A stretch of 33,782 bases of DNA from Dokdonella immobilis (GTDB taxonomy: Bacteria; Pseudomonadota; Gammaproteobacteria; Xanthomonadales; Rhodanobacteraceae): positions 1 to 33,782 of the forward strand of contig NZ_FOVF01000041.1 in the NCBI RefSeq assembly GCF_900115085.1. The letters run 5' to 3'. A model generated the notes under the pieces. That model was not told where the DNA came from, did no database searches, and saw only the letters and a program-made list of their open reading frames with translations. How positions within the stretch are numbered: position 1 is the stretch's first letter; the number at the start of each line of letters is the position of its first letter. Shown here one piece after another: positions 8,252 to 32,239 of the stretch. A program made the position numbers and the translations under genes.

Positions 8252-10687
<2,436 letters not shown>

Positions 10688-17439: not shown

Positions 17440-17952
17440 ATGACGGCCAAAGACGAAGCAGTGCCGCCGCTGATAACGGTACGCCAGCTGGCACAGCAGG
17501 GCGACGTCACGGTGCATGTAGTGCGCAACTATCTGCGGCGCGGCCTGCTGCGAGCGGCCACGCATACCGGGAGCGGCTACCAGCTGTTTTCAGCCTCGGA
17601 GCTCCAGCGCCTGCACTTCATTCGTACGGCGCAACAGCTCGGCTTCACGCTGACTGAAATCGAGGACATCATCCGCCACAGCCTGCTGCGACATAGTCCC
17701 TGCCCGCTCGTGAGGGACATCATCCGGCGCAGGCTCGACGACACCCGCCAACAACTGGACAGGCTGCTGGCCATGCACGAACGGATGGAGCATGCCATCC
17801 ACACTTGGGCAGCGCTGCCGGACTCCATTCCGACTGGCGACGATGTCTGCGCATTGATCGAAGCCGTTGCCGCGACAGAAGGCGGCAAGTTCGTCAGGTC
17901 CACCCCGCGACGACTCCTCGGGCGTCGCCTCACTCAGGAGAATTTGCCATGA
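17440..17952 (+). CDS. MerR-family transcriptional regulator, MerD-like N-terminus
   Basis: A 170-residue MerR-family protein. The winged-helix part reads LAQQGDVTVHVVRNYLRRGLL, closer in wording to MerD (VSVHIVRDYLLRGLL type) than to CueR or MerR. The domain goes on with GYQLFSASELQRLHFIRTAQQLGF. A long dimer helix follows (LLAMHERMEHAIHTWAALP). Cys residues are few: C88 in SPCPLV and C137 in DVCALIE, which could sense metal. ATG 17440 lies about 28 bases after the -10 box with GGGAG before it. The stop overlaps the next ATG. Likely target: its own promoter, perhaps also the cus operon, but no second matching operator was found. Confidence 0.85.
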   Translation: MTAKDEAVPPLITVRQLAQQGDVTVHVVRNYLRRGLLRAATHTGSGYQLFSASELQRLHFIRTAQQLGFTLTEIEDIIRHSLLRHSPCPLVRDIIRRRLDDTRQQLDRLLAMHERMEHAIHTWAALPDSIPTGDDVCALIEAVAATEGGKFVRSTPRRLLGRRLTQENLP

Positions 17953-18257
17953 CTGCCCCCCGCTCTCCCGCCACGTCCGGGTCCCGACGTTGGGTCTTCT
18001 GGATCTTCCTCGCGCTGGCCGTGTTCTATCTGGGCGTCGAGCATCGCGCCCACCTCGCAGGAACGCTCCGCTGGTTGCCACTGGCCATCCTGCTGCTGTG
18101 CCCCCTCATGCATGTGTTCATGCACAAGGGGCATGGCGGGCATGGAGGGCACGGGCGCGGCGGCAATGCCGACGACACACCCAACGGCAGCCCCGACACC
18201 CGTGGCAAGCCCGTATTGACCGACGAAACGTCCGACACCTCGACCGGAGGGCACTGA
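17949..18257 (+). CDS. DUF2933 small membrane protein
   Basis: A 102-residue DUF2933-type protein with one or two membrane segments: WVFWIFLALAVFYLGVEH, then LPLAILLLCPLMHVFMH. A Cys-Pro-x-x-His and Met/His end of the second helix leads into a glycine/histidine repeat (HKGHGGHGGHGRGG), a likely metal-binding stretch, and a polar tail. Genes of this type sit beside metal-efflux and MerR genes in many proteobacteria without a known role. It overlaps the regulator stop (ATGA) and is followed 1 bp later by the methyltransferase-like gene, so the three form one operon. Confidence 0.8.
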   Translation: MTAPRSPATSGSRRWVFWIFLALAVFYLGVEHRAHLAGTLRWLPLAILLLCPLMHVFMHKGHGGHGGHGRGGNADDTPNGSPDTRGKPVLTDETSDTSTGGH

Positions 18258-18258
18258 C

Positions 18259-18921
18259 ATGCATGCACCTGACTCTGGCTACGGTCTTTGGCTCCTGGCC
18301 GCCATCAACGCCGCGTTCTTCATCTTCTTTGCCTGGAGCTTCTACAAGCCGTTGACCCGGTGGGACTGGCGGGGGTTCGGGATGTTCTCCGCCTTCGTCG
18401 TGGCCCTGTTCGCGGAAATGTATGGCTTCCCGCTGACGCTGTACGTCCTGGGCGGCTGGCTCAGCGCCAACTATCCGCAGGTGAACTGGCTCAGCCATGA
18501 CGCGGGGCATTTGCTGGAGATGTGGTTCGGCTGGCGCGCCAATCCGCATTTCGGTCCATTCCACATCGCGAGTTTCGTGTTTATCGGCGGAGGGTTCTGG
18601 TTGTTGTCGACCGCCTGGCCCGTGCTGTATCGGGCACAGCGAGAGGGTCGGCTTGCCCGTGAGGGCGTGTATGCGCGCATGCGCCACCCGCAGTACGTTG
18701 CCTTCGTGCTGGTGCTGACCGGCTTCCTGCTGCAGTGGCCGACGCTGCTCACACTCATCAGCTTTCCGGTGCTCGTGTGGGCCTATGCCCGCCTCGCTCG
18801 CCGTGAGGAGAAAGATTGCCTGAGCCGCTTTGGCGACGACTATGCCCGCTACATGCAGGAGGTCCCGGCCTTCCTCCTGCGACGCCGGCGCGGCCCCGCG
18901 CCATCGCCGGGAGAAGCATGA
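18259..18921 (+). CDS. Isoprenylcysteine carboxyl methyltransferase (ICMT/PEMT)-like membrane protein
   Basis: A 220-residue polytopic protein of the ICMT/phospholipid-methyltransferase superfamily. N-terminal membrane segments occupy about 8-105. The conserved C-terminal catalytic region is present: LAREGVYARMRHPQYVAFVL near 134 (the RHPxY S-adenosylmethionine-binding motif) and RREEKDCLSRFGDDYARYM near 182 (EE..L..FG..Y). Bacterial members are frequent in metal-resistance islands, next to DUF2933. Their substrate is unknown: lipids, isoprenoids or thiols are possible. It ends at the TGA inside an ATGATG, after which a doubtful 44-codon frame runs to 19052. Confidence 0.82.
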   Translation: MHAPDSGYGLWLLAAINAAFFIFFAWSFYKPLTRWDWRGFGMFSAFVVALFAEMYGFPLTLYVLGGWLSANYPQVNWLSHDAGHLLEMWFGWRANPHFGPFHIASFVFIGGGFWLLSTAWPVLYRAQREGRLAREGVYARMRHPQYVAFVLVLTGFLLQWPTLLTLISFPVLVWAYARLARREEKDCLSRFGDDYARYMQEVPAFLLRRRRGPAPSPGEA

Positions 18922-19550: not shown

Positions 19551-20936
19551 ATGACATCGTCTTCCAGCCCCACCCTGCAATTCCTCGGTGCCGCGGGCAC
19601 TGTGACTGGCTCGCGCTACCTGGTTGAGGCCAACGGTCAGCGCGTGCTCGTGGACTGCGGCCTGTTCCAGGGCTACAAGCAATTGCGCGACCGCAACTGG
19701 GCTCCGTTTCCCGTCGAGCCGTCATCGATCGACGCGGTAGTCCTGACCCACGCCCACCTGGACCATTCGGGCTACTTGCCCGCACTGGTCAAACAAGGGT
19801 TCCGCGGCCGGATCCACTGCACCCATGGCAGCGTGGCCCTGTGCGGCCTGCTGCTTCCCGACAGTGGATACCTGCAGGAAGAGGATGCTAAGTATGCAGC
19901 GCGCAAAGGGTACTCCAAGCACAAGGAACCACGACCGCTTTATACCGAGGATGACGCCCGCCGCAGCCTGAAGCAGCTCAAGGGGCATGACTATGGTCGC
20001 GACATCGAGGTCGCATCAGGCGTCACGATCCGCTTCCATCCTGCCGGCCACATCCTGGGCGCTGCCCACGTCAGCCTGGACGTCCAGGGCCAGCGCCTGC
20101 ACTTCAGTGGTGACCTGGGCCGGCAGCAGGAGTCTCTGATGAACCCGCCAACGCCCCTGCCCGCCTGTGACGTACTGGTCTGCGAATCCACATATGGCAA
20201 TCGGGAACACGTTCCGATCGACCAGGAGGCGGAGCTGGCCCCCATCATCCGCCGCGTCGCTGCCCGTGGGGGCGTAATCGTCATTCCGGCCTTTGCCATC
20301 GGTCGCGCCCAGGCGCTCATGCTGCATATCGCCCGGTTGCGCGAGCGCAAGGACATCCCTCGCGTGCCGGTCTACCTCAACAGCCCGATGGCAATCAACG
20401 CGACCCGGCACTACCACGCCCACCATTCCGAGCACCACGTGTCCGAAGAGGACTGCCAGCGGATGTTCGACGTGGCCACCTTCGTCAACACTGTAGAAGA
20501 GTCGAAGGCGCTCAACCGCCAGCGCGGGCCGATGATCATCATCTCGGCCAGCGGCATGATCACCGGCGGGCGCGTGTTGCACCACATCGAGGCGTTCGGC
20601 CCCGATGACCGCAACGCGATCCTGCTCGCGGGCTACCAGGCCGGAGGAACACGCGGTGCCGCGCTGGCGGCAGGCAAGCGCACGTTGCGCATGTTCGGCC
20701 GCGAGGTCCCCATCCGCGCTGAAGTGGTGCAGCTGGAAGGCTTCTCCGGCCACGCCGACGCCGGGGAGTTGCTGGACTGGATGCGCACCGCGCCGTCCGC
20801 GCCGCGCGTGGTGTACCTCACCCATGGCGAGCCCGATGCAGCCGACACACTGCGCGCGCGCGTGCAGCGTGAACTGGGCTGGCGTGCGCGCGTGCCGGAG
20901 CACCTGGAGCAAGTCGGATTGGAGGATGCGAGATGA
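19551..20936 (+). CDS. Metallo-beta-lactamase/beta-CASP RNA nuclease
   Basis: A 461-residue MBL-fold protein with beta-CASP and C-terminal RMMBL parts, the family of CPSF73-like RNA exo/endonucleases. The zinc motifs are intact: LTHAHLDHSG with H67, H69, D71, H72; PAGHILGAAH; FSGDLG; and a final LTHGEPDA near 425. The beta-CASP domain holds PAFAIGRAQ, YLNSPMA and ISASGMITGGR, and GFSGHAD follows. An AGGAG site lies before ATG 19551. The stop overlaps the next gene as ATGA. In this cluster it would supply nucleotides from RNA to the phosphorylase. That is inference from order alone. Confidence 0.9.
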   Translation: MTSSSSPTLQFLGAAGTVTGSRYLVEANGQRVLVDCGLFQGYKQLRDRNWAPFPVEPSSIDAVVLTHAHLDHSGYLPALVKQGFRGRIHCTHGSVALCGLLLPDSGYLQEEDAKYAARKGYSKHKEPRPLYTEDDARRSLKQLKGHDYGRDIEVASGVTIRFHPAGHILGAAHVSLDVQGQRLHFSGDLGRQQESLMNPPTPLPACDVLVCESTYGNREHVPIDQEAELAPIIRRVAARGGVIVIPAFAIGRAQALMLHIARLRERKDIPRVPVYLNSPMAINATRHYHAHHSEHHVSEEDCQRMFDVATFVNTVEESKALNRQRGPMIIISASGMITGGRVLHHIEAFGPDDRNAILLAGYQAGGTRGAALAAGKRTLRMFGREVPIRAEVVQLEGFSGHADAGELLDWMRTAPSAPRVVYLTHGEPDAADTLRARVQRELGWRARVPEHLEQVGLEDAR

Positions 20937-22450
20937 CCACGCAGGCCCCGGGCCACACCCGCCTGCGCGTCACCCGTGCCGGCATCGACACCTACCAGCA
21001 GCCGGTGGTCTATATGCACCGTGACTGTGAAGTCTGCCGCTCGGAAGGCTTTGCCGCGATGACTCGCGTGAGGCTAGACGTGGGTTCGCGCACGCTGGTG
21101 GCGACGCTGAACGTGGTCGTGGACGATCGGCTCGGCCTGGACGAGGTGGCGCTCTCGGAGACCGCGTGGACGCTGCTCGATCCCATGCCCGATGTCCTTG
21201 CCCGGGTCCGGCACGCGGAACCCGCGGCGTCGGCAGGCGCGCTCCGCGCCAAGGTGTTCGGGGCACGGCTGGACGACGCGCAGTACCTCGCCCTGGTGCA
21301 GGACGTGATGGAAAGCAGGCTGTCGGACCTGGAGCTTGCCGCCTTCGTCACGGCCAGCGCGGGCGACCGCCTCGACAACGTCGAGACGACCGCGCTGACG
21401 CGGGCCATGATCGCGGTTGGCCAGCGCCTGGACTGGGGCGATGGGCCGGTGCTGGACAAGCACTGCGTCGGCGGCCTGCCGGGCAATCGCACCACCCCGA
21501 TCGTGGTGGCCATCGTGGCCGCGCTGGGCTACCGCATCCCGAAGACGTCCTCGCGCGCCATCACATCGCCCGCGGGCACCGCCGACACCATGGAAGTGAT
21601 GGCGCCGGTGGCGCTCGACCTGGCGGCGATGCGGCGGGTGGTGGAGCGCGAGGGCGGCTGCATCGTCTGGGGCGGCAACGTGCGCCTGAGCCCGGCCGAC
21701 GACATCCTGATCCGGGTCCAGCGCCCGCTGGACTTCGATAGCGACGGACAACTGGTAGCCAGCGTGCTGTCGAAGAAGATCGCGGCGGGCTCCACCGACG
21801 TGCTGATCGACATGCCGGTGGGTCCGACCGCCAAGGTGCGCAGTGAGGCTGCGGCGGACAGCCTCGGCTCGCGGCTTGCACACACCGCCAGCGCGCTTGG
21901 ATTGCAGCTGGCCATCCATCGCTCCGACGGCACCCAGCCGGTGGGTCGGGGCATCGGCCCGGCGCTCGAGGCGCACGATGTGCTCAAGGTGCTGCGCAAC
22001 GCCACCGACGCACCGGCCGACCTGCGCGAACGCGCGCTTGCGCTGTCGGCGGCGCTGCTGGACATGGCACCGGGCAGCAGCACCGGCACCGGACTGGAGC
22101 GCGCGCGCAGCGTGCTGGATTCCGGGAGGGCGCTGGCCAAGTTCCTGGCGATCTGCGAAGCCCAGGGAGGCTTCCGCGAACCGGCGCGGGCGCCATTCAC
22201 CGCCGACGTTCCGGCATCCGCGTCGGGCCGCATCACGGAAATCGACAACCGCAGGCTGGCCAAGCTGGCCAAGTTGGCCGGCGCACCCACATCCCCCACC
22301 GCCGGCCTGGAAACGAGTCTGCGCGTCGGCGATGCGGTCGAGCGCGGACAGCCTCTGCTGACCCTGCATGCGGAGTCTCCGGGCGAGCTGGCCTATGCGC
22401 TGGAGCACGCCGCCACCTTGCAACCCTTCGTCCTTGGAGAGGTTCCATGA
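20933..22450 (+). CDS. Thymidine phosphorylase family protein, long form (AMP-phosphorylase-like)
   Basis: A 505-residue nucleoside phosphorylase of the thymidine-phosphorylase fold. It has an extra N-terminal domain of about 85 residues (TYQQPVVYMHRDCEVCRSEGF), a size and layout shared with archaeal AMP phosphorylase, which splits NMPs to base and ribose 1,5-bisphosphate. Core motifs: LSDLELAAFV, DKHCVGGLPGNRTTPI near 175, KTSSRAITSPAGTADTME near 203, GGCIVWGGN, and LSKKIAAGSTDVLIDMPVGP. Standard DeoA is near 440 residues. Whether this enzyme takes thymidine or NMPs cannot be decided by eye. Its start and stop both overlap neighbours by ATGA. Confidence 0.9.
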   Translation: MTTQAPGHTRLRVTRAGIDTYQQPVVYMHRDCEVCRSEGFAAMTRVRLDVGSRTLVATLNVVVDDRLGLDEVALSETAWTLLDPMPDVLARVRHAEPAASAGALRAKVFGARLDDAQYLALVQDVMESRLSDLELAAFVTASAGDRLDNVETTALTRAMIAVGQRLDWGDGPVLDKHCVGGLPGNRTTPIVVAIVAALGYRIPKTSSRAITSPAGTADTMEVMAPVALDLAAMRRVVEREGGCIVWGGNVRLSPADDILIRVQRPLDFDSDGQLVASVLSKKIAAGSTDVLIDMPVGPTAKVRSEAAADSLGSRLAHTASALGLQLAIHRSDGTQPVGRGIGPALEAHDVLKVLRNATDAPADLRERALALSAALLDMAPGSSTGTGLERARSVLDSGRALAKFLAICEAQGGFREPARAPFTADVPASASGRITEIDNRRLAKLAKLAGAPTSPTAGLETSLRVGDAVERGQPLLTLHAESPGELAYALEHAATLQPFVLGEVP

Positions 22451-23361
22451 CCCGTGTGCTGATGCCTTTCCCGGCCGATGCAGCATTGGCCAGCACCATG
22501 AACCAGGCTATGCAGGCGCGCATTGCACCTGTGGCTTGGCGGCACTTTCCCGATGGCGAGTCGCTGGTGACCCTGGAGGACTCGCTGGCTGGCGCGGATG
22601 TGGCCATCCTGGCCAGCCTGCGCCACGCCGATGCTTTGGCCCTCCCGTTGCGTTTCGCCGCCCGAACGGCGCGCGAGTTCGGGGCGCGCTCGGTCGGCCT
22701 GATCGCGCCCTACCTGGGGTACATGCGCCAGGACAAGCGTTTCCATGGTGGTGAAGCGGTCAGCACGCCGCTGTTTGCCCAGTTCCTGGAGGAGACGTTC
22801 GACTGGCTGGTGACCGTGGACCCGCACCTGCACCGCGTCGAGCGCCTGCAGTCGCTCTACCGGATTCCGACGGCCCACGTGTCGGCGACGCCGGCCGTGG
22901 CGCGCTGGATCGCGGAGACCGTCCCCGACGCGGTGCTGATCGGACCCGACAGCGAGAGCGAGCAATGGGTCGCCGACATCGCCGCCCGCTCCGGCATGCA
23001 CTGGCAGGTGCTGGCCAAGGAACGCCACGGCGACTACGACGTGCGCGTGAGCCTGCCTGACCCGGCGGCCGTGGCCGGCCGGACCCCGGTCCTGGTCGAC
23101 GACATCGTGTCGTCCGGCCATACGATCCTGGAGACCCTCGCGCACCTGCGCCAGCTGTCGCTGCCGCCACCGCTGCTGGTCGCCCTCCATCCGGTGTTCG
23201 CGGGCGATGCCTACGCCCGCCTGCAGGAGGCGGGCCTGGCCCGCATCGTCAGCACCGACACCATTCCCCACCCGTCGAACGCGATCGCGCTGGGCGCCGA
23301 CCTCGCCGCCGCGGCATCGACCCTGATGCGCGCTTCGACCGATTCCCCGGAGGACCCATGA
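22447..23361 (+). CDS. Ribose-phosphate pyrophosphokinase (PRPP synthetase) family protein
   Basis: A 304-residue PRPP-synthetase homologue. Recognisable are FPDGESLV (near 34), YLGYMRQDKRF near 89-99 (ATP-binding RQD), DPHLHR at 125, GPDSESEQWV near 166 and the PRPP loop VLVDDIVSSGHT at 215-226. The flexible-loop region reads KERHGDYDVRVS rather than the DKRRP type of the housekeeping enzyme, so it is a divergent paralogue, not the main PrsA. It could make PRPP from ribose 5-phosphate, or run in reverse to release ribose 5-phosphate and ATP. It overlaps both neighbours by 4 bp (ATGA), tying it to the phosphorylase and the phosphoketolase-like enzyme. Confidence 0.9.
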   Translation: MTRVLMPFPADAALASTMNQAMQARIAPVAWRHFPDGESLVTLEDSLAGADVAILASLRHADALALPLRFAARTAREFGARSVGLIAPYLGYMRQDKRFHGGEAVSTPLFAQFLEETFDWLVTVDPHLHRVERLQSLYRIPTAHVSATPAVARWIAETVPDAVLIGPDSESEQWVADIAARSGMHWQVLAKERHGDYDVRVSLPDPAAVAGRTPVLVDDIVSSGHTILETLAHLRQLSLPPPLLVALHPVFAGDAYARLQEAGLARIVSTDTIPHPSNAIALGADLAAAASTLMRASTDSPEDP

Positions 23362-25820
23362 ACCTGCATCTCAACTGCTGCACCGCCGACCAGCTGTCGG
23401 CCGCCGAGCGCCAGCGGATCCTTGAACTGGCCGACGCCCACCGGCAGACCGATCCCGCGTTCGCCCATTGGGCTGCCGGCTACGGCGTGATCCGGCATGA
23501 CCCGCTCACCCAGCTCCGGGTCCGCCAGATGGTGGACGAGCTGGTGACCCTGGGCCGCACGCCCGATGCCGGCACCGCCTGGCAGCGGCTCGCCGCGGCC
23601 GACCGCGTCACCAGCGCCGGCATGTGGCTGGTGGCGCACATGACCTACAGCCAGCGGGTCCGTACCGACGGTGCGGCCCTCGAGTCCGATGACTTCAAGA
23701 TCACCCCCGAAGGCCACACCGGCGGGTCCCTCAACATGGTGCCCGCCTATGCCGGCTACCTGCTGATGGACGCCCTGGATGGCGTCACCCGCGCATGGAT
23801 GATGGGCCAGGGACACTGCGTGGCCGCGATCGACGCGCTGAACGTGCTGGTTGGCAACATGACCGACCGGCACGCCGAACGTTACGACCGCACCGGCGAA
23901 GGGCTGAGCCGGTTCGTAAGCGACTTCTATGCCTACACCCTCAATCCGGACGGAACGCCGGCGTCGCCCCTCGGCTCCCACGTCAATGCGCACACCGCCG
24001 GGGGCGTGATGGAAGGCGGCTATCTCGGCTTTGCCGAGCTGCAGTACGTGCATGCGCCGCTCAAGGATGAACGCCTGGTCGCCTTCCTCAGCGACGGTGC
24101 GTTCGAGGAACAGCGTGGCAGCGACTGGGCGCCACGCTGGTGGCGCGCCGAGGACAGCGGACTGGTCAGCCCGATCATCATCCTCAACGGGCGCCGCATC
24201 GAACAGCGCAGCCAGATCACCCAGCAGGGCGGCGAGCGGTGGCTGGACCGGCACCTGCGATTGAACGGCTTTGATCCGATCGCGCTGGACGGGCGCGATC
24301 CGGCCAGCATCGCGTGGGGCATCCACGTGATGGAGTCGCGCCTGCAAGCGGGCGCCGCTGTTCCCGCCGACGTGCGGCTGCCCTATGGCATCGCCGAAAC
24401 CGTCAAGGGCTTCGGCTTCCCCGGCGCCGGGACCAACGCCTCGCACAACTTGCCGCTGCCGGGGAATCCGGCGAAGGATGCCGCGGCGCGCACGCTCTTC
24501 AATGAAGGCGCAGCGGCGCTGTTCGTGGCCGCGTCGGAGCTCGAGCAGGCCGTTGCCGCACTCAACAGCCACGATCTCCAGCAGCGGGTGCGCGAGCGCG
24601 ACCATGCGCTGGCCGATCGCCAGGTGGAACCGCCCCGCGTCCCGGCGATCGCCGACCGCGGCGCCGGCGGTGAGAGCTCGCCAATGACCGCACTCGACGA
24701 GCAGTTCGTCGCCATCGCCGAGGCGAATCCGGGACTGCGGGTGCGCGTGGGCAATCCCGATGAGCTGCGCAGCAACAAGCTCGACCGGACCCTGGACGCG
24801 ATGAAGCACCGGGTGCACGAGCCCGAGCCCGGCGTCGCCGAATCGCCAACCGGCGCGGTCATCACTGCGCTCAACGAAGAAGCCGTGGTCTGCGCGGCGC
24901 TCGGCAACAAGGGCGGGCTAAACTTGGTGGTCACCTACGAGGCGTTTGCACCGAAGATGCTCGGCGCCGTACGTCAGGAACTGATCTTCGCCCGCCACCA
25001 GGCCCAGGCCGGGCGCCCACCCGGCTGGCTGGGCGTGCCCCTGGTGCTGACCTCGCACACGTGGGAGAACGCGAAGAACGAACAGTCCCACCAGGATCCG
25101 ACCATGGCCGAGGCACTCATGGGCGAAATGGCCGACATTTCGCGCGTGGTGTTCCCGCCGGACGCCAATGGCGCTGCCGCCGCCCTCGCCCGCGCCTACG
25201 CGCAACGGGGCACGGTCACCACACTGGTCGTTCCCAAGCGTCCGGTGCCTCATGAGCTGACCCCGCAGCAGGCCCAGGCACTGGCCGAGACCGGCGCAAC
25301 ATGCCTCGCCGGCGATCCGGAGACGGCGGCGATCCTGCTGGTGGCCACCGGCGCGTACCAGCTGCAGGAAGTGCGCCGCGCACAGGCGCGTCTGGCCGCA
25401 CGCGGAATGTCGGCCGCGATCGTCTATCTCGCCGAACCCGGCCGATTTCGCGCCCCGCGCGATCCGGAGGAGGCAAGGTACGTGCACTCCGACAGTGCGG
25501 TCCAAGCGCTGTTTCCGGTGGGCCGGCCGCGCGTATTCGTTACCCACACCCGTCCGGAGCCCTTCCTCGGTGCGCTGCGCCGACTCGACACCGGCCCCAC
25601 CACCACCGCGGCGCTGGGCTTCGTCAACCGGGGCGGCACACTGGACGTGCCGGGCCTGCTGTTCGCCAACCGCAGCACCTGGGCGCACGTGGTTGACGCG
25701 GCTGCGGGCGTCCTCGGCGAGTCCCGCGACAACCTGCTGTCCGAAGCGGAGCTGGCGGCCGTGGATGGTCGCGGCGATCCGACCGCCATCCTGCGCGCGG
25801 AAGCGGGGCCGGCATCGTGA
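23358..25820 (+). CDS. Phosphoketolase-superfamily thiamine-diphosphate enzyme
   Basis: An 820-residue enzyme with the size and order of xylulose-5-phosphate/fructose-6-phosphate phosphoketolases, which cleave ketose phosphates with Pi to acetyl phosphate. Family-like segments: EGHTGGSLNMVPAYAGYL near 117, GQGHCVAAIDAL near 152, SDGAFEEQRGSDW near 245 with a following LNG (ThDP/Mg site), TSHTWENAKNEQSHQDPTMA near 562 and VFPPDANG. Several motifs differ from classical Xfp (GHTGG where GHWGT is usual, GQGHC where GPGHG is usual), so substrate or reaction may differ. Relatives are sometimes labelled xylulose 5-phosphate 3-epimerase. It overlaps the PRPP-synthetase gene by ATGA. Confidence 0.85.
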   Translation: MNLHLNCCTADQLSAAERQRILELADAHRQTDPAFAHWAAGYGVIRHDPLTQLRVRQMVDELVTLGRTPDAGTAWQRLAAADRVTSAGMWLVAHMTYSQRVRTDGAALESDDFKITPEGHTGGSLNMVPAYAGYLLMDALDGVTRAWMMGQGHCVAAIDALNVLVGNMTDRHAERYDRTGEGLSRFVSDFYAYTLNPDGTPASPLGSHVNAHTAGGVMEGGYLGFAELQYVHAPLKDERLVAFLSDGAFEEQRGSDWAPRWWRAEDSGLVSPIIILNGRRIEQRSQITQQGGERWLDRHLRLNGFDPIALDGRDPASIAWGIHVMESRLQAGAAVPADVRLPYGIAETVKGFGFPGAGTNASHNLPLPGNPAKDAAARTLFNEGAAALFVAASELEQAVAALNSHDLQQRVRERDHALADRQVEPPRVPAIADRGAGGESSPMTALDEQFVAIAEANPGLRVRVGNPDELRSNKLDRTLDAMKHRVHEPEPGVAESPTGAVITALNEEAVVCAALGNKGGLNLVVTYEAFAPKMLGAVRQELIFARHQAQAGRPPGWLGVPLVLTSHTWENAKNEQSHQDPTMAEALMGEMADISRVVFPPDANGAAAALARAYAQRGTVTTLVVPKRPVPHELTPQQAQALAETGATCLAGDPETAAILLVATGAYQLQEVRRAQARLAARGMSAAIVYLAEPGRFRAPRDPEEARYVHSDSAVQALFPVGRPRVFVTHTRPEPFLGALRRLDTGPTTTAALGFVNRGGTLDVPGLLFANRSTWAHVVDAAAGVLGESRDNLLSEAELAAVDGRGDPTAILRAEAGPAS

Positions 25821-25845
25821 GCCGGCCGGCCAGGACCTCGCGCTG

Positions 25846-27438
25846 ATGGCGGGCACGGTGCGCCGCGGAGGCCAGATCGCCTGGGCCGGACTGACTCTCG
25901 GGGTCGCGGTGTTGCGCCTGCGCCGACGCAGACCCGAACGGCTTCCCGCGTACGTCAGCGCCACCCTGGTGGGGCTGGGTACCACCTTCGTCAAGCTGGG
26001 CCAGGGTTTGAGCCTGCGCTGGGACCTGCTGCCGGCGCCCTATCGCGAGGCATTGTCGCGGTTGCACAGCGACGTGCCGGCATTTCCTGCGGACCAGGCC
26101 AGACACATGGTCGAGCAGGCGTTCGGCGCCTCCGTCGAAGAGCTTTTCGCCAGCTTCGATGACCATCCGCTGGCCGCCGCGTCGGTGGCTCAGATCCATC
26201 CGGCACGCATGCATGACGGTCGCGACGTGGTCGTCAAGGTCACCCGGCCCGGCATCCACGCTCAAGTGCAGGCTGACCTGCGGCTGCTTCGACGCACGCT
26301 GCGCGTAGCCCAGTGGATCTGGCCGCCTCTGAAGCGACACCGCCCCCTCGAACTGGTGGACGAGCTGGGCGCATTCCTGCGCGATGAAATCGACATGCGT
26401 CACGAGGCGCAGAACATGCGCCGCATGGCGAAGGTGCTCGATGCCCTGCCAGGCATCACACAGCCACATGTCGTTGAGCCCTACGCCACCCGCGACGTGC
26501 TGGTCCAGGATCGTAGCCACGGCACCCGCCTGGAAGCCGCTTATGGAACGGCGGCGGCTCCCGCACTGGCAAGGGCGCTGCTCGGTGCCTACGTGCATCA
26601 GCTCTTCGGCGCCGGCGTCTTCCATGCCGACCCGCACCCGGGGAATCTGTTCTTCTTTGACGACGGTCGCCTGTGCCTGCATGACTTTGGCTCGATCGGC
26701 GTGCTCGACCCTGCATCCCGGCTCGCGCTCGGCGGCATGGTCGAGGCCATTGCGGCCGACGACGCCGAGGGCGTGCTGGATGCAGCGATCGCCATGGGCT
26801 TCTTCCCGCCGCAGGTCGACCGCCGCTCGCATGTGCGCGAGATCCACCTGATCCTGGCCGAGATGGCCAGCCGTCCGCTGGCGCAGTGGTCCATTGCCGA
26901 GGCAATCTGGCGCGTGGCACGCATTGGGCAGGGCGCTGGCTTCCGGCTTCCGGCCCACCTGCTGTCCCTGATCCGGACGCTGTTCCTGGTCGAGAACACG
27001 CTGCGGGCGCTGGATCCGGATCTGGACCTGCTGGGGACGCTGTCCGCGCAGGCGGCCGCGATCGCCGACATTGCCGAAGCCAGCCGCCCCAGCGGCAACA
27101 GGCCGCTTGCCATGCGGCTGGCCCGCACTGCGCGCCAACTGCCACAGATCGCCACCGACCTGTTGCGGCAGGCGCAACTGAGCGACGGACGACCCGCCTT
27201 CTCCGTACACCACCATGGCCTGAGTTCCACGCAGGAGGCAATCGCGCGCACGGGCAACCGGCTGGCGTTGGCCCTGGTCACCTTGGGCCTGTACGTAAGC
27301 GGTGCGCTGTTGAGCCTGCATTCCGACGGCCCGCAAGTGTTCGGTCACATGCCTTTCCTGGCGATCGTGGCCTTCGCTGCTGCGGGATTGCTCTCACTGC
27401 GGCTGGTGATGGCCATCGCCAGATCGGGACACTTGTAA
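25846..27438 (+). CDS. AarF/UbiB (ABC1)-family atypical kinase
   Basis: A 530-residue ABC1 protein, the UbiB-like atypical kinase/ATPase family linked to quinone and lipid metabolism. Signature parts: GTTFVKLGQGLSLRWDLLP near 45 (KxGQ), AAASVAQIHPA with an Ala-rich loop, VVVKVTRPGI with the ATP lysine near 132, ELGAFLRDEIDMRHEAQNM, FHADPHPGNLFF near 262 and LHDFGSIG near 280 (catalytic DPHPGN and DFG). Two C-terminal membrane helices follow (LALALVTLGLYVSGALLSL; FLAIVAFAAAGLLSLRLVM). ATG 25846 is the first in-frame start after the previous stop, 25 bp away. Its role in the nucleotide cluster is unclear. Confidence 0.88.
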   Translation: MAGTVRRGGQIAWAGLTLGVAVLRLRRRRPERLPAYVSATLVGLGTTFVKLGQGLSLRWDLLPAPYREALSRLHSDVPAFPADQARHMVEQAFGASVEELFASFDDHPLAAASVAQIHPARMHDGRDVVVKVTRPGIHAQVQADLRLLRRTLRVAQWIWPPLKRHRPLELVDELGAFLRDEIDMRHEAQNMRRMAKVLDALPGITQPHVVEPYATRDVLVQDRSHGTRLEAAYGTAAAPALARALLGAYVHQLFGAGVFHADPHPGNLFFFDDGRLCLHDFGSIGVLDPASRLALGGMVEAIAADDAEGVLDAAIAMGFFPPQVDRRSHVREIHLILAEMASRPLAQWSIAEAIWRVARIGQGAGFRLPAHLLSLIRTLFLVENTLRALDPDLDLLGTLSAQAAAIADIAEASRPSGNRPLAMRLARTARQLPQIATDLLRQAQLSDGRPAFSVHHHGLSSTQEAIARTGNRLALALVTLGLYVSGALLSLHSDGPQVFGHMPFLAIVAFAAAGLLSLRLVMAIARSGHL

Positions 27439-27501
27439 CAGAACACTGATCTATCTCCCCGCTGGTGCCCGGTGCATCAGTGCATTCAGGAAGGCAGACC
27501 C

Positions 27502-29577
27502 ATGACGCAACGCAATCATCATCATCAAGATCATCAGGCGCACGGCGAGCAACCGCCGCATCCCCGCACGGGTGCTGAAGGTGACGTCCATGCCGGGCAC
27601 GACAAGCATGCCGGCCACAGCGTGGCGAGCTTCCGCGACAAGTTCTGGTTCACGCTGCTGCTGACCATCCCCACTCTGATCTGGAGCGGGATGATCCAGC
27701 ATTGGTTCGACTACACCGCACCACAGTTCCCGGGGTCGGCGTACATCCCGGCGGTGTTCGGCACGATCGTGTACTTCTACGGCGGCTGGCCGTTCCTCCG
27801 CGGCGGATACCACGAGCTGAGAAATCGCCTGCCGGGCATGATGACGCTGATCTCGCTTGCGATCACCGTCGCCTTCCTTTACAGCGCGTTGGTCACGCTC
27901 GGCGTTGTCGAGGGCTTGGACCTGTGGTGGGAGCTGGCGACGCTGGTGGCGATCATGTTGCTCGGCCACTGGATCGAGATGCGTTCGATCAACCAGGCAC
28001 AGGGCGCTCTCAAGGAACTCGCGAAGCTGCTGCCTGATATGGCGGTGCGGTTGGATGAGGCCGGTACCGCGAAGGAAGTCCCTGTCGCGGAACTGAAGCG
28101 CGGCGACCTGCTGCTCATCAGGCCCGGCGCGAGCATTCCCGCCGACGGCGTCGTGAAGGAAGGGACCAGCGCCGTCAACGAAGCGATGATCACCGGCGAG
28201 TCCAAGCCGATGGACAAGTCGACGGGCGACCGGGTGATCGCCGGCACCGTCAACGGACAGGGCTCGTTGCGTGTCGAGGTGACGGGAACCGGCGACGAGA
28301 CCGCGCTCGCGGGTATCATGCGGCTCGTCGAGCAGGCCCAGACGTCGCGCTCGCGCGCCCAGGCCCTGGCGGACCGGGCGGCGTTCTACCTCACGATCAT
28401 CGCCATCGTCTCCGCCGCGGTTACCGCCATTGTCTGGCCACTCCTCGGTCGACCGTGGAGCTTCACGATCGAGCGCGTAGTGACCGTGCTCGTGATCGCC
28501 TGTCCCCATGCGCTGGGCCTGGCCATTCCGCTGGTGACCGCCATCTCGACCACGATTGGCGCACGGAACGGCCTGCTCGTGCGCGATCGACGCGGCCTGG
28601 AAGAGGCCCGTTTGCTGAACACGGTCGTGTTCGACAAGACAGGCACGCTCACCCTCGGTTCGCACCGCGTCGTGAAGACCACTGCCGCCGATGGACTCAC
28701 CGACGACGAGGTGCTTCGCGTGGCCGCGTCGGTCCAGCGCGACGCTGAACATCCGATCGCGCAGGCGCTGATGACCAGCGCCAAGGAACATGGCATCGAC
28801 GTTCCGATGTCGCAGGACTTCGAGTCCATGCCGGGACGCGGCGTGCGCGCAGTCGTCGAGGAGCGCTCGCTTCACGTTGGCGGGCCGGGTCTGTTGAGAA
28901 TGCTCGCGGTCGAACCGCCGGAGACGCTTCGGCGGGCTGCCGAATCAGCGGCAGCCGATGGTCAATCTGCAACCTACCTGGTGGAAGGCGACCGGGTGCT
29001 CGCCGTATTTGCGATCGCGGATGCCATCCGTCCCGAATCGTTCGACGCGGTCAAGCGGCTGCACGACGAAGGACTGGAGGTTGTCCTGCTGACGGGTGAT
29101 TCCACGGCGGTCGCAAACGCGGTCGCGAAGGAACTCAACATCGACACCGTCTTCGCCGAGGTATTGCCCGAGGACAAGGTGGCAAAGATCGAGGAGCTGC
29201 AGGCCCAGGGCAAGCGCGTCGCGATGGTGGGTGACGGTGTCAATGACGCTCCGGCGCTGCTCACGTCCGACGTCGGCATCGCCATCGGCACAGGGACGGA
29301 CGTCGCGGTCGAGGCCGGCGACGTCGTACTCGTGCGCAGCGACCCGCGCGACGTGCCAGCGATCATCGAATTGAGCAAGGCCACCTATCGCAAGATGATC
29401 CAGAACCTGTGGTGGGCCGCCGGCTACAACATCGTCGCCATCCCTCTCGCCGCTGGCGTTCTCGCCGCATGGGGGATCCTGCTGCAACCTGCGCTTGGGG
29501 CAGTGCTCATGTCGCTGAGCACCGTCGTTGTGGCAATCAATGCGCAGTTGTTGCGCCGGGCGGTGCGGTCCCCATGA
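27502..29577 (+). CDS. P1B-type ATPase with CPH motif (CopB/P1B-3-like)
   Basis: A 691-residue heavy-metal ATPase. The N-terminus is His-rich (NHHHQDHQAHG, HAGHDKHAGH) without HMA domains. The membrane motif is CPH at 334-336 instead of CPC, which marks the P1B-3 group, reported to move Cu(II), Cu(I) or Ag(I). Other motifs are intact: ITGESKPMDKSTGD, DKTGTLTLG with D378, AEHPIAQAL, TGDSTAVANAVA and GDGVNDAPALL. ATG 27502 lies 63 bp after the AarF gene. Together with the CPC ATPase at 8252 the island has two copper pumps of different class. Its place before acetate kinase suggests co-transcription with the nucleotide cluster. Confidence 0.92.
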   Translation: MTQRNHHHQDHQAHGEQPPHPRTGAEGDVHAGHDKHAGHSVASFRDKFWFTLLLTIPTLIWSGMIQHWFDYTAPQFPGSAYIPAVFGTIVYFYGGWPFLRGGYHELRNRLPGMMTLISLAITVAFLYSALVTLGVVEGLDLWWELATLVAIMLLGHWIEMRSINQAQGALKELAKLLPDMAVRLDEAGTAKEVPVAELKRGDLLLIRPGASIPADGVVKEGTSAVNEAMITGESKPMDKSTGDRVIAGTVNGQGSLRVEVTGTGDETALAGIMRLVEQAQTSRSRAQALADRAAFYLTIIAIVSAAVTAIVWPLLGRPWSFTIERVVTVLVIACPHALGLAIPLVTAISTTIGARNGLLVRDRRGLEEARLLNTVVFDKTGTLTLGSHRVVKTTAADGLTDDEVLRVAASVQRDAEHPIAQALMTSAKEHGIDVPMSQDFESMPGRGVRAVVEERSLHVGGPGLLRMLAVEPPETLRRAAESAAADGQSATYLVEGDRVLAVFAIADAIRPESFDAVKRLHDEGLEVVLLTGDSTAVANAVAKELNIDTVFAEVLPEDKVAKIEELQAQGKRVAMVGDGVNDAPALLTSDVGIAIGTGTDVAVEAGDVVLVRSDPRDVPAIIELSKATYRKMIQNLWWAAGYNIVAIPLAAGVLAAWGILLQPALGAVLMSLSTVVVAINAQLLRRAVRSP

Positions 29578-29596
29578 ACATGATTCGGGGACACCT

Positions 29597-30699
29597 GTGA
29601 CCACGCGCCGGCTTCTTGCACTCAACGTTGGCTCGTCCACCCTCAAGGGCGCGTCCTATCTGTTCAACACTGAGGGACACGGCGCGCAGTCTCGTCTGCT
29701 CGAGCGCTCCCGGGCCGAAATTCCAGTCGGCGTGGATGCGCAGGAGCGCCTTGCCACCCTGCTCGAGGCATTGTCGGAGCCGTGGCCCAGCCCCGACGTG
29801 GTGGTGCACCGAATCGTACATGGCGGTGACCTGCACGACGCCCGCGAGCTCGACGAAACCGTGCTCGCGAAACTGGATGCATTGGTGCCGTTCGCACCCT
29901 TGCACCAGCCGGTAGCCCTCGCTTTCGCGCGTGCCGCGCGCATGCGTTGGCCGCACGCGCGCCAAGGCGTGGCCTTCGACACCGACTTCCACGCGTCGCT
30001 CGCGCCCTGGAGCCGGCGCTTGCCTGTCCCTGAAGCATGGGATGCGCTGGGCATCCGCCGCTACGGTTTCCATGGACTCGCCTTTGCCTCCGCGCTCCGC
30101 ATAGTGGCCAGCCACGACGCTGGAATCCTGAAGGGCCGCGCTGTCTTCGCGCATCTGGGGGGTGGCTGCAGCGTCTGCGCCGTCGAGGGCGGCCGCAGCC
30201 GCGACACCACCATGGCGCTCACTCCGCTGGGTGGAATCCCGAGCCCTACCCGCTCCGGAGATCTCGATCCCGGCGCATTGCTGTATCTGCTACGGCACGA
30301 GCGTCTGGATGCGCAGGCACTTGAAGATGGCCTTATCGCAGTGCAGGCCTTGCCGGAATCGCCGGGCATGGCGACATGCGCGTGTTGCTGGCCGATCCCG
30401 GCCCGCAGGCCCAGCTCGCCGTGGAGCTGTTTGCAGTCCGGATCGCGCAGTCCATCGCGGCCATGGCCACGGGAATCGGCGGACTCGACCATGTCGTCTT
30501 TTCCGGCGGCATCGGCCACCGCGCGCCCGGTCTGCGGGCGCGGATCATCGCGCGCCTGGGCTGGCTTGGCTTGGCGCTGGCGCCTTGCGCCAACGATGCT
30601 GGAGCCACGCGGATCGATGGTGGAAGCGGGCCAGCCATCTGGAACGTCGCGATCGATGAGGAACGCGAGCTGGCCGAATCGGCACTGGCCTGGCTGTAA
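29597..30699 (+). pseudogene. ackA: Acetate kinase, split by a 1-nt frameshift
   Basis: An acetate/propionate-kinase-family gene (acetyl phosphate + ADP to acetate + ATP). The first frame, from GTG 29597 (GGGGA 6 bases upstream), shows LALNVGSSTLKG, VVHRIVHGGD, FDTDFHAS, YGFHGLAFAS, HLGGGCSV and TRSGDLDPG. Near 30332-30336 the family sequence moves to the next frame: ALEDGL in frame one should join YRSAGLAGIAGHGDMR in frame two, which goes on with FSGGIGHRAPGLRARI to TAA at 30697-30699. One missing T in CTT(T)A explains it. Joined, the protein would be near 367 residues, a little shorter than usual. The unshifted frame runs on to 30937 as junk. The cause is mutation or sequencing error in a T-run. 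Confidence 0.85.
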
Positions 30700-30735: not shown

Positions 30736-32013
30736 TCACTCGTCGATCAGTGGCGTCGTGAGCACCGCTGCGAATCCACCACCGGGGGTGCGCATGTTCG
30801 TGGTTTGGCCGTGGTACAGCCTGGCCGCGAACAACAGCACACCCGCCTCAGACGCAAAGCAGCGCACGTCGGCCTTGAGAAACTGGCCCCCATGCACGAT
30901 CCGCATGCTCGGTGGCGCGAAGGTCTGTGCGATGTAGGTCGCCGACGCCATGGACTCCCACGTCCGCCGGGTGAGCTTGTCGCCCCGATAGCTCCCTCGG
31001 CTGCCGAACCCTGCTGCAGGCTTGAAGAAGTAGCCGTTGCGCGCTGCCCACAGCGCATCCCGGTTCCCGGGCACGACTTCAACCGTGGGCGGGATCACCT
31101 GTGCCAACAGGGCGGTCGAACCCGCATCGACCCCGAACCCGCCAAGCAGAACAGGGTCTCCCAGCACCGCGAGGTTGCGCTTGTCGGCGAACAGCGCGTG
31201 CGCACGCGGATGCGGTGTCAGCGCCACTTCCCCTGCGAGGTAAGCCTGACGAAGGTCTGTATGTGACGCTTCCTCAAGCGCGAAATCGGTCAACCGGTTG
31301 TAGACCATGTCGATCCGGCCGTGCGCATCTGCAAGCCCGTCCGGACCAAACTTCAGTTCCTCGGGTGCGCGTATCACGCAGTCCACGCCATGCTCCCGGA
31401 ATGCGCCCGCGTACAGCTCGAACTCGGGGTAGAGGAACTGCTCCCGCGGGGCGCTGTCCACGATGGCCAGACGCGACGGCATACGGCCGGACTGCTGCCG
31501 GGCGTCCTCCAGCCAGGCGATGATAGCCATGTTGCTAGCGTTGGCCCCCGTTGTCCAAGTGGTCCACGCATCCGGTGCGCAGGCCTGCACGGCATCGACC
31601 AGCATTGCATTGAGAAGCAGCCCGCCGGGATTGGTGTTGACCTCAATCAGCCGCGGGCCGTCGACTGTCAAGTGAAAGTCCAGCCCCAGGACTCCACCCG
31701 CCGACCCTGGCTCATGGGTCGCGATGTCGGGGGCCCATTGCAGGACGTGCTGGCGATATCGCGGATTTGCTGCGACGTCGAAGACCGTCGCCGCGACTCG
31801 CCCCATGGCGTCCAGCGCCGCGCGATCAACGAACAGGGCATACGGGGAAAACAGGTGGGCGTGCACGGATGGATCGGCCGTGAACTCCGGAAAGGCAGAC
31901 CGGATCGACTCGTGCAAACTGAAAACGTCAACCACTTCGCACGCACATCGCTGGTTGAGCTGCGCACCTACCGAGGTGGCACAGTCGAGATCGCAGCCTG
32001 CCTGTGCAGTCAT
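30736..32013 (-). CDS. ATP-grasp-like protein with permuted motif order, last gene of the mer operon
   Basis: A 425-residue protein of no family I can name. GLDFHLTVDGPRLIEVNTNPGG near 120 looks like the metal-binding end of an ATP-grasp site (Asp, Glu, Asn), while the Lys/Gly-loop part, FFKPAAGFGSRGSYRGDK, comes later, near 326. Normally these occur in the reverse order, so the fold would be circularly permuted, as in glutathionylspermidine-synthase-type ligases. It would then join a carboxylate to an amine or thiol using ATP. ATG at 32013 follows the GDCCVxC gene by 13 bp on the same strand. The in-frame extension upstream overlaps that gene. No signal peptide. Product and role unknown. Confidence 0.72.
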   Translation of the reverse strand: MTAQAGCDLDCATSVGAQLNQRCACEVVDVFSLHESIRSAFPEFTADPSVHAHLFSPYALFVDRAALDAMGRVAATVFDVAANPRYRQHVLQWAPDIATHEPGSAGGVLGLDFHLTVDGPRLIEVNTNPGGLLLNAMLVDAVQACAPDAWTTWTTGANASNMAIIAWLEDARQQSGRMPSRLAIVDSAPREQFLYPEFELYAGAFREHGVDCVIRAPEELKFGPDGLADAHGRIDMVYNRLTDFALEEASHTDLRQAYLAGEVALTPHPRAHALFADKRNLAVLGDPVLLGGFGVDAGSTALLAQVIPPTVEVVPGNRDALWAARNGYFFKPAAGFGSRGSYRGDKLTRRTWESMASATYIAQTFAPPSMRIVHGGQFLKADVRCFASEAGVLLFAARLYHGQTTNMRTPGGGFAAVLTTPLIDE

Positions 32014-32026
32014 TATCGAAGTCCGG

Positions 32027-32239
32027 TCAACCACAACATGAATTGTGCTGTTGGATCGGCGGGCATGGCACTGTTCCGAACGAGCAGAACACACAGCAGT
32101 CGCCTTGATTCGGCCGCAAGACCACTCCACAGCCCGTGCACTCGTAGAAAAATTGGCACGCTGTGACTGGCATTGTCTCGGTCGCCCGATGGCCGCACTC
32201 CGGGCAGGTCAAGATGCTTTCTAGCTCGACGTCACTCAC
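32027..32239 (-). CDS. GDCCVxC domain-containing protein
   Basis: A 70-residue cytosolic Cys-rich protein of the GDCCVxC (seleno)protein family. It shows SDVELESILTCPECGH, ETMPVTACQFFYECTGCG and the naming motif GDCCVFCSFGTVPCPP. Nine or more Cys include two zinc-ribbon-like pairs. All positions are Cys: no in-frame TGA is used, so this is not the selenocysteine form. I prefer the GTG at 32239, which overlaps the merP stop, since family members begin MSD-. ATG 32254 is the alternative (5 residues longer). The family often stands beside merT/merP, and the role (metal or thiol chemistry) is not known. Confidence 0.85.
   Translation of the reverse strand: MSDVELESILTCPECGHRATETMPVTACQFFYECTGCGVVLRPNQGDCCVFCSFGTVPCPPIQQHNSCCG

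Follow-up and report, generated by a model that had tools for sequence, protein, structure and literature searches.

We examined a set of genes within a 33,782-nucleotide stretch of the Dokdonella immobilis genome (contig NZ_FOVF01000041.1, assembly GCF_900115085.1; this whole stretch is "the window" below), which an original prediction had read as a candidate path from RNA through nucleoside monophosphates (NMPs) and pentose phosphates to acetyl phosphate and ATP. Four genes are chained, as described there, by three consecutive ATGA overlaps at 20933, 22447, and 23358:

19551..20936, plus strand: MBL/beta-CASP/RMMBL ribonuclease-like protein, first of the overlapping set (Pfam Beta-Casp, RMMBL, Lactamase_B)
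20933..22450, plus strand: long-form NMP-phosphorylase-like protein of 505 amino acids (PRK04350; ATGA overlap with the MBL gene)
22447..23361, plus strand: paralogue of phosphoribosyl pyrophosphate (PRPP) synthetase, hereafter PRSp, of the PRK07199 family, with ribose 1,5-bisphosphate (R15P) as its proposed substrate (ATGA overlap)
23358..25820, plus strand: divergent phosphoketolase-like, thiamine diphosphate (ThDP) enzyme (Pfam XFP, XFP_N; ATGA overlap)

Three more genes follow on the same strand, with the AarF kinase and the CPH ATPase where the prediction had them:

25846..27438, plus strand: AarF/ABC1/UbiB-family atypical kinase (Pfam ABC1, 199 bits; start ATG 25846 inferred)
27502..29577, plus strand: P1B-type CPH metal ATPase (TIGR01511 and TIGR01525 over cut-off; CPH motif; start ATG 27502 inferred)
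29597..30699, plus strand: acetate kinase gene, frameshifted, its two parts in two frames (start GTG 29597 inferred)

That first reading is partly confirmed as an observation and partly supported as an interpretation. The nearest solved structure to the MBL protein is Ribonuclease TTHA0252 (E 1.6e-82), and the protein scores below every NCBIfam cut-off that it matched (top model cas14_MBL_CASP, 360 against a cut-off of 800).

The phosphorylase scores 646 bits against the PRK04350 cut-off of 434, and its nearest solved entries are 4ga5/4ga4 (E 7e-91), within the nearest solved group 4ga4–4ga6, which we take to be the Thermococcus kodakarensis NMP phosphorylase. It is a long form with an N-terminal domain beyond the nucleoside-phosphorylase core (residues 46–499 align with 35–490 of 4ga5, and the TIGR03327 match spans residues 11–501). 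Alignments with solved structures yielded motifs separating the two kinds of enzyme, KTSSRAITS...GTAD and GGxPGN versus the nucleoside-phosphorylase motif SGRGLGHTGGT. In the phosphorylase cluster (106 sequences, not dereplicated), KTSSRAITS or a near form occurs in 100, GGxPGN/S in 101, and GTAD in 103, while SGRGLGHTGGT occurs in none. To judge by family, motifs, and the PhnN fusions described below, the protein is very probably an NMP phosphorylase that makes R15P. The records opened label it thymidine phosphorylase and label PRSp ribose-phosphate diphosphokinase or pyrophosphokinase.

PRSp exceeds the cut-offs of both PRK07199 (366.1 vs. 322) and TIGR01251 (176.9 vs. 113), and reaches 183.7 bits to PRK00934 as against 110.1 bits to PRK01259, presumably the archaeal and bacterial Prs models, respectively. 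Its nearest solved relative among Prs enzymes is 1u9y, which we take to be a Class III (archaeal) PRPP synthetase, and like that enzyme it mostly keeps the catalytic residues. A survey of 89 PRSp sequences (not dereplicated) against 20 canonical Prs (drawn from 30 fetched loci, 10 of which yielded none under the motif filter), with residues mapped to Escherichia coli Prs by motif, found the equivalents of adenine-, ribose-, and metal-binding residues (F34, D36, H127, D168, D218, D219, and T226) and the loop lysine and arginine (K191 and R193) in 89/89; at position T225, 73 sequences have S and 16 have T. Unlike 1u9y-type enzymes, the subfamily has further invariant residues beside its metal ligands. 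H129 and R130, two and three residues past metal ligand H127, replace canonical D/T/G and Q in all 89 sequences (HLHR instead of HxxQ); E170, two residues past metal ligand D168, is likewise invariant where canonical enzymes have G (PDxES instead of PDxGG), and S171 is present in 86. The set of four is complete in none of the three sequences aligned to PRSp in the solved-structure comparison.

According to a study of E. coli Prs, the ligand residues there are F35, D37, H131, D170, D220, D221, and T228, with H131 and D170 binding two magnesium ions where phosphoryl transfer occurs and R99 contacting the nucleotide beta-phosphate (PMC9232217). The equivalent of R99 is R in 20/20 canonical sequences and is mixed in PRSp (T 32, R 20, K 11, A 8, and others among the 89), and this position varied (K, R, Q) in the three sequences of the solved-structure comparison too. 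PRPS classes IV–XI, to one of which PRSp might belong, have been described (PMC13252144).

We searched 398 genomes of the phylum with both families. The phosphorylase is over cut-off in 44 (~1 in 9) and PRSp in 40, 39 of these lying within the 44, so that 39 genomes carry both genes, five the phosphorylase only, and one (G383) PRSp only. This association is far beyond chance (Fisher p 2.4e-47, with related genomes not independent). Around 46 phosphorylase loci from 42 of the 44 genomes (all except Dokdonella and G236; second copies in three genomes and G255, which is under cut-off, are included), with ~9 kb taken on each flank where the contig allowed, PRSp was found in 40, mostly as the next gene, MBL in 20, a P-type ATPase in nine, acetate kinase in four, and AarF in two. 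The PRSp-family gene of G383 (locus L228, 8772–9716), which is over cut-off and whose neighbours look by eye like a transporter and a peptidase, is a useful outlier for the question of the PRSp substrate.

The genomes with the phosphorylase and no PRSp over cut-off point to what the pair may do. In G285 an adjacent PRSp falls short of the cut-off (299.6 bits vs. 322), and in G249, G308, G382, and G392 the phosphorylase is fused to PhnN (164–186 bits vs. a cut-off of 156). Eight further fusions, with one domain order, were identified by motif, and the 10 fusions for which a tree was built group as a single clade (support 1.0). PhnN is the ribose-1,5-bisphosphokinase that converts R15P to PRPP (PMC9700705). 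As the fusions occur where PRSp is missing and PhnN acts on R15P, the phosphorylase would make R15P and PRSp would occupy the place of PhnN; PRSp thus probably handles R15P, and the original prediction that it bridges the R15P gap gains strong support. PRSp would resemble PhnN in this step, and PhnN is joined in relatives to the same phosphorylase family, whereas PhnN is guanylate-kinase-like rather than of the Prs fold and was not found over cut-off in the Dokdonella genome (best 53.9 bits vs. 156), one of 31 among the 39 two-gene genomes in which that is so. The fusion proteins lie at 8331–10433 of L074, in L075–L077, and in L220–L227; no mention of them was found in those portions of the literature that were available.

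A quinolinate-PRTase-like gene, forming one cluster and identified with Pfam on the L074 copy only, lies beside the fusion in four of 12 fusion loci (L074, L076, L077, and L227), an arrangement suggestive of a PRPP-recycling ring centred on a pyridine base. Phosphonate metabolism was considered as a context for the fusions and set aside: visual inspection of the genes listed for these loci, which were not scanned with phn models, showed no C-P lyase-like genes. The prediction had also noted that R15P isomerase and RuBisCO are missing here, and this extends to the whole Dokdonella genome: R15P isomerase is not over cut-off (best 181.7 bits vs. 314.1), and RuBisCO has zero matches (RuBP phosphatase was not searched for). 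Across the 45 genomes with either gene, none has R15P isomerase over the TIGR00511 cut-off, the weaker matches of 139–187 bits being probably MtnA-like, and a RuBisCO match over cut-off occurs in 21.

The phosphoketolase-like protein exceeds the Pfam gathering scores of XFP (134.7 bits) and XFP_N (45.6 bits), with no XFP_C match listed by Pfam, and is the only XFP match in the Dokdonella genome. In a comparison directed at the ThDP/Mg motif and the catalytic His and Glu residues of phosphoketolases, it shows GHTGG, GQGHC, GSH, SDG...NG, YEAF, SHQDP, and the lysine of PKR, which align with known enzymes or are largely invariant (five sequences), and the usual HN pair reads KN. A contig scan confirmed at least 521 relatives, and among the loci of the best 80, many near-identical and some on short contigs, the companions are PRSp (56 loci), the phosphorylase (55), MBL (53), acetate kinase (51), a P-type ATPase (48), and AarF (47); a GAPDH-family cluster appears in 14 and is type II by annotation in one plasmid record. 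Dereplication of the 80 at 80% identity left 28, and dropping eight with short flanks left 20 whose flanks each reach 7.5 kb or more. In these 20, MBL occurs in 15, the phosphorylase in 14 (including L179, a partial match at 40% identity), a P-type ATPase in 14, PRSp in 13, acetate kinase in 11, and AarF in eight, in several orders; in three loci MBL, phosphorylase, PRSp, and acetate kinase were all not found. L193 and L196 hold XFP, MBL, and acetate kinase with no phosphorylase–PRSp pair. The refuting outcome that the prediction had named, a lack of conserved gene order, did not materialise: gamma-, beta-, and alphaproteobacteria, as well as plasmids, carry these genes side by side in more than one arrangement.

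The likely circumstances of use are indicated by published work on Bradyrhizobium, whose genes we matched to the module families by name and operon order. The FixK2-dependent table for B. diazoefficiens lists bll3117-bll3116-bll3115, predicted to be an operon and encoding, in that order, a phosphorylase-family protein, a ribose-phosphate pyrophosphokinase, and an MBL protein, and the operon bll2518-bll2517 (phosphoketolase and acetate kinase) is FixK2-dependent as well (PMC9104804). Deletion of fixK2 changed expression −6.6-fold for bll3117, −30.6-fold for bll3115, −10.0-fold for bll2518, and −10.2-fold for bll2517, and the FixK2 boxes of the bll3117 and bll2518 operons lie at −74 and −89 (PMC9104804). 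A second study reports bll3115, bll3116, bll3117, and bll2518 raised in microoxia as transcript and protein (PMC6515984). These tables, by analogy, favour that part of the prediction which placed the genes in cells "when respiration fails." The window resembles bll2518-bll2517 in joining a phosphoketolase family to acetate kinase, although the low-oxygen control is that of Bradyrhizobium, and the window enzyme belongs to a divergent clade tied to the NMP phosphorylase and PRSp, bll2518 having been compared by name. On a plasmid of another species, B. septentrionale, the genes also run phosphorylase–PRS–MBL and overlap at their ends; universal stress genes lie close by, and the PRS encoded there matches the window PRSp at E 2e-39. 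Loci L045, L046, L048, and L049, of one genus, share this order, and in L045 both the phosphorylase (PRK04350) and PRSp (PRK07199) are over cut-off. Upstream of first-in-run genes in relatives, FNR-type boxes number 10/185 against 2.2 expected from a background of whole loci, coding sequence included, in a set of related loci (phosphorylase 5/40, MBL 3/56, phosphoketolase 2/37, acetate kinase 0/46, and PRSp 0/6); upstream of internal genes TTGA-N6-TCAA was found in 1/213.

Taken together, we consider it probable (at roughly 0.6) that the module is an oxygen-limitation route that ferments the ribose of NMPs to acetate and ATP. The MBL/beta-CASP nuclease would help to cut RNA to 5'-NMPs, and the long-form phosphorylase, as family, motifs, and PhnN fusions suggest, would convert NMP and orthophosphate to base and R15P. 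PRSp would then take R15P, with R15P + AMP -> ribose 5-phosphate (R5P) + ADP as the favoured reaction. RpiA and Rpe, whose genes are present elsewhere in the Dokdonella genome, could carry the flux to xylulose 5-phosphate, the phosphoketolase-like enzyme would yield acetyl phosphate and glyceraldehyde 3-phosphate, and acetate kinase would yield ATP; extra ATP might come from glyceraldehyde 3-phosphate via GAPDH, a neighbour gene in some relatives.

When PRPP synthetase runs backwards, AMP attacks the phosphorus beside ribose O1 and takes the diphosphoryl group. R15P bound in the same geometry would have one phosphoryl group moved instead of two, and the anomeric phosphate would be saved. We favour this reaction because it needs no ATP, yields R5P for the phosphoketolase, and suits a 1:1 partnership with an NMP phosphorylase. 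Our preference applies to clusters with a linked phosphoketolase and is based on their catabolic neighbours, as against the four of 12 PhnN fusions that lie beside the quinolinate-PRTase-like gene. The full proposal—that PRSp is a new R15P:AMP phosphotransferase, derived from PRPP synthetase, in an isomerase- and RuBisCO-free low-oxygen fermentation of RNA ribose to acetate and ATP that plasmids have spread among proteobacteria—is put forward tentatively, at somewhat less than even odds.

Several observations weigh against a fermentative route of this kind. We know of no activity for any protein of the module. The phosphorylase is under the cut-off of the AMP_phos equivalog TIGR03327 (439.8 bits vs. 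535), and, since the residues of Prs are kept except for the R99 equivalent, ordinary PRPP synthesis by PRSp is possible. Six NCBIfam phosphoketolase models match the phosphoketolase-like protein, none over cut-off (best 125.3 bits vs. 777), and 14 of 15 plasmid records (H26, H28–H40) name its family "xylulose 5-phosphate 3-epimerase," a name for which no source was found among the literature matches listed. Linkage of the two halves is incomplete: a phosphoketolase lies within reach in just four of the 46 phosphorylase loci, six of the 20 dereplicated phosphoketolase loci have no phosphorylase, and in L129, L130 (a short contig), and L131 MBL adjoins XFP with no phosphorylase–PRSp pair between them. 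PhnN is also present in eight of the 39 two-gene genomes. In the window, the 300 bases that precede 19551 contain no exact FNR/FixK box (TTGA-N6-TCAA), the best candidate there having two mismatches; with that, a whole-locus background, and related loci, low-oxygen control in the window is argued by analogy only.

The window acetate kinase is, moreover, broken. The position that the prediction gave it, downstream on the same strand, holds, but its N-terminal match (29783–30328) and C-terminal match (30340–30597, stop at 30699) lie in different frames, whereas the halves share one frame in 47 of the 50 loci that have both (window counted; the exceptions are the window, L126, and L140). Unless this is an assembly error, the ATP step in the Dokdonella strain would thus fall to an acetate kinase outside the window, and the same genome has a second one in a single frame (C75:12665-13807).

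A rival reading is recovery of PRPP, in which PRSp, like PhnN, would phosphorylate R15P with ATP to give PRPP and ADP, the PRPP would go to phosphoribosyltransferases, and the phosphoketolase would be a separate passenger. The replacement of PRSp by PhnN, an enzyme making PRPP from R15P, in the fusion lineage speaks for this, as does the likely PRPP user (the quinolinate-PRTase-like gene) beside four of 12 fusions. We nevertheless judge it unlikely, given that the genes found linked to PRSp (those for phosphoketolase, acetate kinase, and GAPDH) call for R5P, that FixK2 controls both halves in Bradyrhizobium, and that PRPP synthesis is ill-suited to energy shortage. Less probable again is an ordinary salvage pair, that is, a normal but unregulated PRPP synthetase beside a phosphorylase of nucleosides or NMPs, the released bases being used again with the PRPP so made. 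The scores of PRSp over the TIGR01251 and PRK07199 cut-offs and its largely intact catalytic residues fit such a role; however, a canonical-scale Prs (358–415 bits to TIGR01251) already exists in 44 of the 45 genomes, Dokdonella with its one canonical-scale prs among them and 70%-complete G236 showing PRSp only, the invariant changes adjoin both metal sites of PRSp, and the PhnN fusion would be left unexplained.

That the genes simply gathered on a mobile copper/mercury island and share no pathway is, in our estimate, very improbable, even though the surroundings invite the idea. A copper region (multicopper oxidase, CopC, CopD, and OEP/HlyD/RND efflux) lies upstream of the module and MerT downstream, near-identical islands occur in Luteimonas, Pseudoxanthomonas, Stenotrophomonas, and an Alcaligenaceae relative, and PRSp-like genes are found on plasmids: among 72,556 plasmid records, 103 have a match to PRSp at E <=1e-30, and 48 of these plasmids are typed as conjugative (the weakest matches include genes named prs, maybe ordinary ones); of 60 matches checked down the ranking, 34 are overlapped by a gene annotated as thymidine phosphorylase, and the phosphoketolase matches 15 records at E <=1e-100. 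Yet the same core is kept in differing orders in many genomes, and neither the domain fusion nor the published co-regulation of unlinked halves fits mere co-transport. On Acidovorax p1-T1, MBL, phosphorylase, PRSp, AarF, type II GAPDH, phosphoketolase, a MerR regulator, and acetate kinase lie within ~19 kb, with ppk2 upstream; an Agrobacterium plasmid has the order PRSp–XFP–MBL–phosphorylase and, close to it, a Crp/Fnr regulator. The copper genes look like island companions of the module, and the CPH ATPase probably belongs to the metal island; the metal shock that the original prediction offered as an alternative trigger is accordingly unsupported. AarF, which the prediction counted among the linked genes, is present here and is a facultative neighbour, linked in just eight of the 20 dereplicated phosphoketolase loci.

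Other features of these loci may be recorded here. L129–L131 are a natural variant that might reveal which of the genes are able to function independently. A perfect FNR-type box (TTGACCTGGATCAA) lies at window position 10684, in the copper region and away from the first gene of the module. On a Sphingobium plasmid (L232, 10608–16825), F1F0-type ATP synthase genes adjoin the module and are perhaps another energy-stress part. A DUF2933 gene, for which we know of no function, is found close to the module in the window (17805–18921) and in five of the first six plasmids examined (L229, L230, L232, L235, and L236), accompanied in some loci by an isoprenylcysteine methyltransferase-family gene; it was not seen in Acidovorax p1-T1. 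A 464-amino-acid open reading frame on the minus strand of the window (30736–32130) is conserved in island relatives (19 loci including the window) and matches none of the Pfam or NCBIfam models at E 0.001. No RNA elements or tRNAs were found in the window.

Among the closest known systems is the archaeal pentose bisphosphate pathway or "NMP shunt" of Thermococcus kodakarensis (TK0352; PMC9700705, PMC12628685). The proposed route shares with it a relative of NMP phosphorylase, R15P as the proposed node, and the passage of NMP ribose to central metabolism; it differs in that the Dokdonella genome lacks RuBisCO as well as any R15P isomerase over cut-off, with PRSp placed at the R15P step and the phosphoketolase at the exit. 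A search of open-licence literature by title and start of abstract found no proposal of this pathway or of this role for PRSp. The separate families, and their control by low oxygen, were known already; what may be new is a variant of R15P-based nucleotide degradation with a possible new enzyme. If this is true, bacteria would own an R15P-based route for nucleotide ribose, built around a new enzyme and of a kind otherwise worked out, so far as the sources seen extend, in archaea. Such a route would also give a role to part of the FixK2 low-oxygen regulon, and would hint at what cells gain from RNA breakdown once respiration stops.

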